A program made the position numbers and the translations under genes. Below are positions 2,563-6,746 of a stretch of 38,736 nucleotides of DNA, one piece after another (position 1 is the stretch's first letter; each line of letters starts with the position of its first letter). This DNA comes from Bacillota bacterium. Lineage in GTDB: Bacteria > Bacillota > Limnochordia > DUMW01. The stretch spans positions 1-38,736 of the forward strand of contig DUMW01000085.1 of the NCBI GenBank assembly GCA_012839765.1, read 5' to 3'. The notes beneath the pieces are model-generated. The model saw nothing but the letters and a program-made list of their open reading frames with translations, had not been told where the DNA came from and made no database searches.

Positions 2563-4410
2563 CTAATTGGATTTGCCATATCGTAGCAGGCGCATCGCAT
2601 TCAGGATTACCGCCAACACGGAACCCTCATGGACTAACATCCCTATAGACATGTTCACCGTTTTAAGCAAAACACCTGCCAATAATATCCCTACTACCAG
2701 GAGGGCAAATCCAATATTCTGCCGAATATTCCGCACTGTCGCCCGACTTAGTCCGACGGCATAGGAAAGCTTATGGATGTCCGCGCTCATCAGTACCACA
2801 TCCGCGGTTTCCATGGCCACATCAGTGCCGGCGCCGCCCACGGCAATACCCAGATCCGCAGCGGCCAAGGCCGGAGCGTCATTTACTCCATCACCCACCA
2901 TGGCCACCGTCCCGTGCTTCTCCCGCAGTTCTTCCAGGGCCTGCACCTTGCCCTCTGGGAGCAATTCACTGTAGAACTCATCAATGCCCACCCGCTGTGC
3001 CACATAGCGCGCAGCCAAGGGATTGTCCCCCGTAAGCATGACCGTTCGTTTGACACCCTGGGCCTTCAAACGGGAGACTAGGGCCGGCGCATCTTCCCGA
3101 ATGGTGTCTGCAATGGAGATTATGCCATAAATGGTGTCTTTCGTGCCGACGATCACCGCAGTCTGTCCCTGTTCTTCCTCCCTTGCCAGATAGGCTTCAT
3201 AGTCCGAAAGATCCACTCCCTGGTCCTGGAAGAGCTTCCGATTACCAATATAATACCGGGTGTCATCAAGGCTGAAGCTCAGTCCTTGCCCGATTACCAT
3301 CTCCACATCCTCGGGAGTCCTGATAATGATACCCGGTCTTTTTTCCGCCTCGGCAATAATGGCTCGGCCCAAAGGATGCTCCGAGTAGGACTCACCGGTG
3401 GCTGCGATGCTGAGGAGTTCCTCTTCGCCCATATTGTAGGCTTTCACCTTAGTCACCCCCGGACGACCCTCGGTCAGGGTACCGGTCTTGTCAAAGGCTA
3501 CCACCCGCACCGTACCCAACTTCTCGATAACCTCTCCACCTTTGATTAACACACCACGTTTCGCTCCATTTCCGATACCGGCCACAATGGAAACGGGGGT
3601 GGAAATCACCAAGGCGCCGGGACAGGAAATCACCAATAGGGTCAAAGCCAACCGAATATCCCGGGTCACAAGGAACAGAACAAGGGAGAACAGGATGATG
3701 GCCGGTGTATACCAGCGAGAAAACCGCTCTAGGAATTTTTGGGTTTTGGCCTTTTTGTCCTGAGCCTCCTCCACCAAATGCAGAATACGGGCAAAGGTGG
3801 TATCGTCTCCCACCTGCTCTGCCCGGATTACAAGATACCCCGATTCAATGATGGTACCGGAAAACACCCTTTCGTCCACGGTTCGACTTACCGGAATGGA
3901 TTCACCGGTAATAGCAGCTTGGTTGATGTAGGCAGAACCCTCCACCACTGTACCATCCACCGCGATCTTCTCACCAGGCTTCACCACCACTAGGTCACCC
4001 TGTTCCACCTCTTCTGGAGAAACAGTGGTCTCCACCCCGTCTTTGCGAACCCTGGCCATGTCTGGGGCTAGATCCATCAAGGCCCTGATAGAAGAACGGG
4101 TTTTTTCAATGGTGCGGGATTCCAAGTAATCTCCCAAAGTAAACAGGAAGGTAACCGCCGCGGCCTCCCAATACTCCCCAATACTGAGGGCCCCAAGCAC
4201 AGCAACGCTGACCAGGGTGTCAATACCCACAACCTTGTAACGCAGCCCACCAATGGCCCTGTTGAAGATGGAGGTGCCCGCGATAACAGTCACTGCCAAC
4301 ATCAGGACAATGGTTAGGGGCGCATAACCGATCATGTTCTTGAGGACAAAGGAAACCCCCGCCATAATCCCCGAGATCCATACGATTTGCGTCTTGCTGA
4401 GCTTAAACAT
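2563..4410 (-). CDS. P1B-type heavy-metal-exporting ATPase with CPG and HEGS motifs
   Basis: A 615-residue membrane ATPase. Visible in order: two pairs of N-terminal membrane segments, the TGES actuator loop (168-171), the TM4 metal motif CPG (263-265, in SCPGALVISTP), the phosphorylation site DKTGTLT (Asp307), the SEHPLG motif of the nucleotide domain, GDGVNDAPAL, and a last membrane segment with HEGS (594-597) followed by N and RLL. CadA/ZntA proteins normally have CPC in TM4 and an Asp in the last segment. The HEG[GS] signature is known from the P1B-4 group (CoaT/PfeT-like; Co, Fe, Zn, Cd), whose TM4 motif is SPC. The metal is therefore uncertain. There is no fused metal-binding domain, but one is encoded just upstream. 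The ATG at 4410 is preferred over GTG 4419 because GGGAGG lies 8 bases before it. Confidence 0.9.
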   Translation of the reverse strand: MFKLSKTQIVWISGIMAGVSFVLKNMIGYAPLTIVLMLAVTVIAGTSIFNRAIGGLRYKVVGIDTLVSVAVLGALSIGEYWEAAAVTFLFTLGDYLESRTIEKTRSSIRALMDLAPDMARVRKDGVETTVSPEEVEQGDLVVVKPGEKIAVDGTVVEGSAYINQAAITGESIPVSRTVDERVFSGTIIESGYLVIRAEQVGDDTTFARILHLVEEAQDKKAKTQKFLERFSRWYTPAIILFSLVLFLVTRDIRLALTLLVISCPGALVISTPVSIVAGIGNGAKRGVLIKGGEVIEKLGTVRVVAFDKTGTLTEGRPGVTKVKAYNMGEEELLSIAATGESYSEHPLGRAIIAEAEKRPGIIIRTPEDVEMVIGQGLSFSLDDTRYYIGNRKLFQDQGVDLSDYEAYLAREEEQGQTAVIVGTKDTIYGIISIADTIREDAPALVSRLKAQGVKRTVMLTGDNPLAARYVAQRVGIDEFYSELLPEGKVQALEELREKHGTVAMVGDGVNDAPALAAADLGIAVGGAGTDVAMETADVVLMSADIHKLSYAVGLSRATVRNIRQNIGFALLVVGILLAGVLLKTVNMSIGMLVHEGSVLAVILNAMRLLRYGKSN

Positions 4411-4431
4411 CCCGGGCACCTCCCTTCCCCT

Positions 4432-4647
4432 TTACTTCTCCGACAGGACTTTGTAACCCAAACCTTCAATCTTCCCCTTAAGTTCCTCGGAAGTCACTAC
4501 GCTTTCGTCGAACTCCGCCTTTACCCGGGAACTGTTGAATAATACTTCCACTTCCTGGACTCCATTGGTCTTCTTTAGTACGTTTTCAATCTTCGCCGCG
4601 CAACTGGGGCAAGCAATGGTTTCCAGCTGATAGGTTCTCTTTGCCAT
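4432..4647 (-). CDS. Free heavy-metal-associated (HMA) domain protein, CopZ/MerP-like
   Basis: A 71-residue protein with one ferredoxin-like HMA fold. The metal-binding CPSC (Cys13, Cys16) follows the first strand, in the place of the usual GMTCxxC loop. The rest matches the family (a helix with AAKIENVLKK, then a strand ending in KAEFDE). It probably delivers metal to, or buffers metal for, the ATPase encoded downstream, acting as the separated N-terminal domain of that transporter. It is the first gene of the operon, with AGGAGG upstream of ATG 4647, and sits directly behind the FNR-controlled promoter. Its metal (Cu, Zn, Cd or Fe) cannot be told from the motif alone. Confidence 0.88.
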   Translation of the reverse strand: MAKRTYQLETIACPSCAAKIENVLKKTNGVQEVEVLFNSSRVKAEFDESVVTSEELKGKIEGLGYKVLSEK

Positions 4648-4678: not shown

Positions 4679-4720
4679 AGTATACGAGAAACGGCGGGAG
4701 ATTACTTTGATCTAGATCAA
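4679..4720 (-). promoter_or_regulatory. FNR box and -10 element of the HMA/ATPase/FNR operon
   Basis: Bases 4707-4720 read TTGATCTAGATCAA, a perfect match to the FNR consensus TTGAT-N4-ATCAA. On the minus strand a -10 element TATACT lies at 4684-4679. Taking the usual spacing, transcription starts at about 4672, which puts the centre of the palindrome (4713.5) exactly at -41.5. This is the class II activator position of FNR. The box overlaps the -35 region and no good -35 is visible, as expected for an activator-dependent promoter. Confidence 0.8.
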
Positions 4721-4919: not shown

Positions 4920-5010
4920 TGGCGGAGGGGGTGGGATTCGAACCCACGGAGGGCTCAGCACCCTCGACGGTTTTCAAGACCGCTCCATTAGTCCACTCTG
5001 GCACCCCTCC
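4920..5010 (-). tRNA. tRNA-Ser (anticodon UGA) with encoded CCA
   Basis: A 91-base class II tRNA. The acceptor stem GGAGGGG/CCCCTCC, the anticodon loop CTTGAAA (anticodon TGA), a long variable arm and the T arm GGTTCGAATCC are all visible on the minus strand. The discriminator base is G and the CCA end is encoded (complement of 4920-4922). It reads UCA and, depending on U34 modification, other UCN codons. It has its own promoter and terminator and lies just downstream of serS. Confidence 0.95.
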
Positions 5011-5196: not shown

Positions 5197-6730
<1,534 letters not shown>

Positions 6731-6746
6731 CGCGTTTGTCTCTATA

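Follow-up and report, generated by a model that had tools for sequence, protein, structure and literature searches.

A putative FNR/FLP-type operator and a probably autoregulated operon of the CPG-type P1B ATPase clade

What does a perfect FNR box in front of a metal-pump operon signify when the operon also encodes a Crp/Fnr-family protein? The question is posed by a 38,736-nucleotide stretch of DNA from a Limnochordia bacterium (referred to below as the window; its positions are numbered from the first letter), in which a minus-strand operon encodes an HMA chaperone, a P1B ATPase and a Crp/Fnr regulator, in that order, with intergenic gaps of 12 and 19 nt (Table 1). A preliminary description had interpreted the box as the class II site of an oxygen-controlled FNR protein. 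From the sequence comparisons reported here, we consider it probable that the operon constitutes an autoregulated class II circuit in which an FLP-type sensor controls a metal pump, most likely for iron(II).

Table 1. Features of the operon, its promoter and the neighboring DNA in the window
Feature	Position	Strand	Basis
HMA-domain metallochaperone (CopZ-like), 71 aa, CPSC metal site	4432–4647	-	ORF; Pfam HMA 6.9e-14
P1B-type metal-transporting ATPase, 618 aa, GTG start	2563–4419	-	ORF; TIGR01525, TIGR01512; CPG clade in tree
Crp/Fnr-family regulator, 228 aa, ETLSR, C3 C6 C12 C110	1857–2543	-	ORF; Pfam; orthologue alignment
Putative FNR/FLP-type operator, TTGATCTAGATCAA	4707–4720	-	exact match; kept before orthologous operons; centre at -41.5
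-10 element, TATACT	4679–4684	-	sequence; 22 nt downstream of operator, 22-nt gap also in orthologues
T-box leader, upstream of a seryl-tRNA synthetase-like gene	6534–6739	-	Rfam RF00230, 101 bits
tRNA gene	4923–5010	-	

The operon and its promoter

The sequence TTGAT-CTAG-ATCAA, previously described as an exact FNR consensus palindrome, is correct to the base: it forms a perfect palindrome and is the sole zero-mismatch TTGAT-N4-ATCAA within the window. Counting the TATACT element from 4684 to 4679 as -12 to -7 puts a presumptive transcription start, deduced solely from this -10 element, at about 4672 and the centre of the box (4713.5) at -41.5, in agreement with the position claimed for it. 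The hexamers located 16–18 nt upstream of the -10 (AGTAAT, AAGTAA and AAAGTA) do not resemble a -35 element. A box centred 41.5 nt from the deduced start, a recognizable -10 and a weak -35 are the features of a class II promoter.

The ATPase scores well above the cut-offs of two curated heavy-metal ATPase models (TIGR01525, 595.4 bits against 346.25; TIGR01512, 514 against 313.5). Of the metal-export operon proposed earlier, the P1B pump therefore stands; export is read from family membership. The protein has SCPG in TM4 and HEGS in TM6 and is devoid of an N-terminal HMA domain. It does not carry the P1B-2 signature of ZntA/CadA, which combines CPC in TM4 with DxG in TM6. Like ZntA/CadA and the PfeT-type P1B-4 pumps, it belongs to the P1B family and exceeds the TIGR01512 cut-off, but its TM4 motif is CPG rather than CPC or SPC and it falls in a separate, well-supported clade. 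We take the HEGS motif to resemble the HEG[GS]T motif that typifies P1B-4, a group with Fe(II) and Co(II) exporters among its members, and also the SPC rows in our comparison of relatives' ATPases. The xCP-type TM4 motif, together with the iron context described below, raised the idea of a ferrosome (fez) operon, and the CPG ATPase is possibly related to the P1B-6/FezB ferrosome ATPases. The product of the third gene contains both domains of a Crp/Fnr regulator (Pfam cNMP_binding, 7.2e-24; HTH_Crp_2, 1.1e-18).

Five perfect TTGAT-N4-ATCAA sequences are present in the 2.56-Mb genome. Three of them fall inside open reading frames, belonging to genes that, judged from their translations, are presumably purC-like, ndk-like and a member of an Mnh-type antiporter cluster. 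The remaining one, besides the box of the window, stands before a second operon copy, which is located on contigs C121 and C95 (L064 and L063) and whose products are 87% (HMA), 89–90% (ATPase) and 89% (regulator) identical to those of the window operon. The second copy keeps the box, the 22-nt gap and the TATACT element, and the DNA farther upstream diverges; in this 121-contig assembly, it could represent either a paralogue or a co-binned strain. The full motif, defined as the box followed after 21–23 nt by TANNNT, has just two occurrences in the genome, both before an operon copy, and a reversed-pattern control found none. A genome search for TTGAT-N4-ATCAA sites had been proposed as a means of defining the regulon; once the -10 spacing is included, it returns the window operon and its copy only. 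A broad FNR regulon in this genome was therefore rejected. Relaxed matching, with up to one mismatch, gave 339 places against 181 in the control, mostly noise. A third Crp/Fnr gene (contig C24, 26% identity) was set aside as an unlikely reader of the box, as it has RPSLSR in place of ETxSR and no CXXC before its domain.

Association of the box with CPG-type ATPases

A set of genomes at class level and contigs of species representatives supplied the relatives. According to the residues that flank the TM4 proline, their P-type ATPases were sorted into xCPG proteins, with mostly HE[GAL]S in TM6, and CPC, SPC or APC proteins. A quick tree, with long branches elsewhere, placed the CPG sequences on one side of a branch with strong support (61 rows; SH-aLRT 100). 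Upstream regions were scored for a box with at most one mismatch and a -10 at 21–23 nt. This combination was found before 48 of the 58 CPG ATPases, and thus missed at 10 CPG loci under the criterion used, versus none of the 38 remaining ATPases, which include the CPC and SPC types (Fisher 1.6e-17, a value that overstates independence since the ATPase loci are related and that is not a true probability). Shuffled upstream regions contained it in 7 of 1140 cases. The gap between box and -10 was 22 nt in 40 of the 49 matches, 23 nt in eight and 21 nt in one, and the best -35-like hexamer at box-bearing loci mostly matched at only two or three of six positions. The nearly constant gap and the lack of a good -35 uphold, by comparison, the class II activation position claimed for the box. 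Within the CPG clade, loci with the box fall on several deep branches, and their genes are arranged in one of three ways: HMA-ATPase-regulator; the regulator ahead of HMA-ATPase; or a short RIC-like protein ahead of ATPase and HMA, with the regulator elsewhere. Layout, conservation and clade specificity are in this sense direct observations. The box, whose conservation upstream of orthologous operons the preliminary description had made the touchstone of its proposal, has been kept.

A search with the exact 22-nt motif through 73 genomes of the class yielded 46 matches against 17 for the reversed control. About 25 of the 46 lie at a CPG ATPase or at the HMA gene that comes next, as assigned by coordinates, with the HMA gene confirmed in part of the cases and one ATPase remnant included. 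In the case of a decayed CPG ATPase reduced to a 119-aa frame (L224; genome G014, contig C40), the promoter box has been retained. Regulator and CPG ATPase also co-occur across 61 genomes (36/6 versus 4/15; Fisher 1.7e-6). Some genomes, such as G004, G026 and G041, have the box and no close regulator, and another Crp/Fnr protein may therefore act there. A 500-aa fusion of a radical SAM domain like that of the PFL-activating enzyme to a complete Crp/Fnr regulator (cNMP_binding plus HTH_Crp_2) is encoded in relative G055 (L168, 887–2389, plus strand), with a PFL-like gene on one side and the box-ATPase operon on the other, and similar 500-aa open frames are present in many relatives. The fusion could be a glycyl-radical-linked regulator and, where a close regulator is missing, may itself recognize the box.

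It could be argued that the palindrome is a functionless product of chance. With five perfect boxes in the genome, three of them in coding frames, a single one in a window is not rare genome-wide. Its conserved position and its specificity for the CPG clade leave this explanation a negligible probability, and it was rejected because the full motif occurs at the two operons only and because of the contrast between CPG and other ATPases. We conclude on comparative grounds that the box-ATPase link is real and not a one-off.

The circuit is not confined to the class. Plasmid records yielded homologues of the regulator in 470 plasmids, mostly from Enterococcus, Lactococcus, Leuconostoc, Listeria and Ligilactobacillus, with identities to the window regulator of mostly 28–36%. 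In eight Bacilli plasmids whose regulator homologue has a P-type ATPase close by (L211, L212, L216–L221), the neighborhood encodes a CPG ATPase, an HMA protein and, in most cases, a Dps/ferritin-like protein. Boxes precede the HMA and ATPase genes in all eight plasmids examined, and L211 and L216 have perfect boxes with the 22-nt gap before Dps and the regulator as well. A Listeria plasmid has four separate promoters, for Dps, regulator, HMA and ATPase, each with a perfect box and a gap of exactly 22 nt, and L. salivarius pMP118 has boxes at the same four. The positive feedback loop postulated earlier finds comparative support in these arrangements: where the regulator is not part of the operon, its own promoter can carry the box (L211, L214 and L216). 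Acetoanaerobium noterae likewise has one box before the regulator and one before the ATPase operon. Within the Actinomycetota, a Corynebacterium has a perfect box before HMA and ATPase, and a Microbacterium has a box with one mismatch before HMA, its Crp/Fnr gene being divergent. Among alphaproteobacterial and haloarchaeal HMA-CPG ATPase pairs the box is mostly absent; the alphaproteobacterial homologues, which keep the gene pair and show no convincing box, were rejected as members of the circuit. We conclude from these comparisons that the circuit is much wider than one Gram-positive anaerobe. A search of the open-access literature for an FNR box coupled to a P1B ATPase retrieved no description of it.

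The ATPase-HMA-Dps-Crp/Fnr cassette is mobile, being carried by plasmids of Ligilactobacillus, Listeria, Leuconostoc, Enterococcus, Lactococcus and Mammaliicoccus (L211, L216–L221). Its boxes are perfect, with the gap of exactly 22 nt. Antibiotic resistance genes lie near it in two cases, str in L218 and tet(K) in L221.

Sensing by the regulator and the metal of the pump

All four FNR cluster cysteines and the ETLSR helix attributed to the third gene's product are present: C3-X2-C6-X5-C12, with C110 at the position of FNR C122. We take this spacing, together with the cysteine at the C122 position, to be the E. coli FNR pattern. The pattern is variable among the orthologues. C12 is found in all 57 scorable sequences and C110 in essentially all alignment rows, but an exact CX2CX5C is present in only nine of the 57, and the four ligand cysteines are thus not conserved among orthologues that use the same box. 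In the 16 residues before C12, 39 orthologues have at least two cysteines, 11 have one and seven have none. Two regulators that start with MNQPDHIHC (L046) and MSSNC (L010, of which L081 is a longer stretch) lack the first two cysteines, yet their operons have the box. Plasmid regulators combine two cysteines with a His-rich tail, as in MAHHHHHSHVDC. The DNA-recognition features of the FNR family, an E-x-x-S-R helix and TTGA half-sites, are nonetheless preserved, with ET[LIV]SR in nearly all orthologue rows and TTGA[TC] half-sites at box-bearing loci, the latter partly built into the search pattern. With 84 bits, the window regulator stays below the cut-off of the curated Fnr model PRK11161 (228). 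Two cysteines are conserved, one before the beta-roll (C12) and one at the C122 position (C110), which is the arrangement expected of FLP-type proteins.

Judged by the alignment, the conserved core of the regulator is FLP-like, and a four-cysteine cluster in the window regulator is possible. Because the four cysteines are not conserved, neither a [4Fe-4S] cluster nor the sign of an oxygen response should be assumed, and the oxygen switch "on without oxygen" of the preliminary description is unproven. The FLP of L. casei binds DNA when oxidised; this would reverse that polarity and is taken as a lead only. C29 and C122 are close in FNR either way, such that a predicted structure would fail to discriminate between a cluster and a dithiol. 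Among Gram-positive FNR-like proteins, a set of two cysteines is frequent, and whether these proteins form clusters or are activated by them is disputed; for FlpA of L. lactis, a cluster held through non-cysteine ligands has been considered possible (PMC5039431).

Gene context bears on the metal. Two further P1B ATPases in the genome, on contigs C45 and C77, are of the CPC type, and the motif is absent from both. In Listeria or Leuconostoc plasmids, genes for a FetAB iron exporter and a VIT1/CCC1 transporter adjoin the cassette; the box is absent from their promoters, and they are therefore regarded as neighbors, not as regulon members. The short RIC-like protein in many operons of relatives reaches 49.7 and 44.1 bits, far short of the RIC family cut-off. 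Together, the RIC-like proteins, FetAB, VIT1/CCC1 and the Dps genes preceded by the box speak indirectly for iron(II) as the substrate. Zinc or cadmium also fits, because a ZIP transporter gene lies near the Microbacterium locus and cadA near a Rhizobium locus. Two further loci in relatives (L225 and L228) have the motif: it is followed by a hybrid cluster protein in G009 and by a longer RIC/YtfE-type protein in G024. Both count as additional indirect signs of iron, and they suggest that the regulon of some relatives extends to Fe-S or nitrosative stress.

Three other readings of the signal were weighed. A true FNR would hold an oxygen-labile [4Fe-4S] cluster on C3, C6, C12 and C110, would be active anoxically and would keep the pump running throughout normal anaerobic growth; in this version it could also serve as an iron-sufficiency sensor. 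The E. coli-like cysteine pattern of the window protein, the two or more cysteines before C12 in most orthologues and the fit of ETLSR and TTGAT to FNR-type recognition all agree with it. We nevertheless find a true FNR rather doubtful in view of the rarity of the exact spacing, the box-bearing loci without the first two cysteines, the two-cysteine plasmid regulators and the low score against the Fnr model. Direct binding of the exported metal (Zn, Cd or Cu) by C12, C110 and the Cys/His tail is an explanation suited to an operon that contains a CPSC chaperone and a P1B ATPase, to tails whose His and Cys residues vary in spacing, and to the listing of the FlpA regulon as metal homeostasis (PMC3616900). 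It is unlikely, given that the genome's separate CPC-type ATPases are without the motif and that partner genes elsewhere point to iron.

A regulator of the HcpR/DNR kind would instead respond to NO-damaged Fe-S proteins, with the pump disposing of released iron. The motifs of HcpR1 (TTGACnnnnGTCAA) and DNR/FNR (TTGATnnnnATCAA) are of the same type as the box (PMC1274295), an operator type common to the NO-responsive activators HcpR, DNR and NnrR; the Hcp and RIC genes under the motif in two relatives, and the RIC-like proteins in many operons, also speak for such a regulator. Against it, hcp, frdX and N-oxide genes are absent beside the window operon, the motif in this genome marks the two ATPase operons in place of the hcp/frdX control that characterizes HcpR, and the Lactobacillales versions accompany Dps, not Hcp. 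We regard an NO regulator as improbable.

The FLP-type reading leads to a model whose regulator-box binding, activation (and not repression), sensing chemistry, metal and polarity we infer from the comparisons above. The regulator from the third gene, or its near-twin from the second copy, would bind TTGATCTAGATCAA at -41.5 and recruit RNA polymerase to this promoter, whose -10 is good and which lacks a good -35. Activation would turn on the HMA chaperone, the P1B ATPase of the CPG/HE-S clade and the regulator itself. The sensor would be an FLP-type redox/metal switch, its site most likely the two near-invariant thiols C12 and C110 aided by the variable Cys/His-rich N-terminal tail; in the window regulator the tail happens to complete the CX2CX5C pattern, so that a [4Fe-4S] cluster could be held there. 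The pump would most likely expel ferrous iron, with zinc the next best candidate, under threat from iron, oxygen/peroxide or NO.

Relation to known systems and significance

B. subtilis pairs Dps with the P1B ATPase PfeT in its PerR regulon. The plasmid cassettes likewise place Dps and a P1B ATPase under common control, but by a presumed Crp/Fnr-family activator instead of a Fur-family repressor, and the window operon is without Dps. FNR-family control of a P1B ATPase is also seen where FixK/FNR controls the copper ATPase FixI/CcoI; the role of FixI is linked to the assembly of cbb3 oxidase, and the window operon has no cbb3-type neighbors. With E. coli FNR, the window system shares the cysteine spacing, the ETxSR helix, TTGAT-N4-ATCAA and the class II position; unlike it, the four-cysteine pattern varies in orthologues, and the regulon in this genome is the operon and its copy, not respiration.

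The FLP, FlpA, FlpB and FlpS proteins of Lactobacillales are likewise Gram-positive Crp/Fnr proteins with few cysteines (PMC5039431), and Lactobacillales plasmid homologues of the window regulator occupy the same HMA-ATPase circuit. The window regulator differs in its two extra N-terminal cysteines, its presumably strictly anaerobic host and its low identity to those plasmid homologues (28–36%); it is likened to the studied FLP proteins by description only. The coupling of FNR-type control to a P1B ATPase, called unusual in the preliminary description, is instead the rule for the CPG clade, and in lactic acid bacteria the FlpA regulon has already been classed under metal homeostasis (PMC3616900). 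By sequence criteria, the circuit is FLP/FNR-type metal-redox control of the FlpA regulon kind, newly tied to a specific ATPase clade. More tentatively, a widespread family of two-thiol/His-rich Crp/Fnr activators may substitute for PerR/Fur, sensing iron, peroxide or oxygen and driving the CPG clade as a hitherto undefined class of Fe(II) exporters, together with Dps in some hosts, on chromosomes and on mobilisable plasmids.

One regulator family and its operator are thereby linked to an entire P1B ATPase clade. With one regulator, one box and an exact spacing, the circuit offers a compact test case for how two-cysteine Gram-positive FNR-like proteins sense their signals. The cassette on Enterococcus, Listeria, Lactococcus, Leuconostoc, Ligilactobacillus and staphylococcal plasmids probably matters for stress and metal tolerance there.
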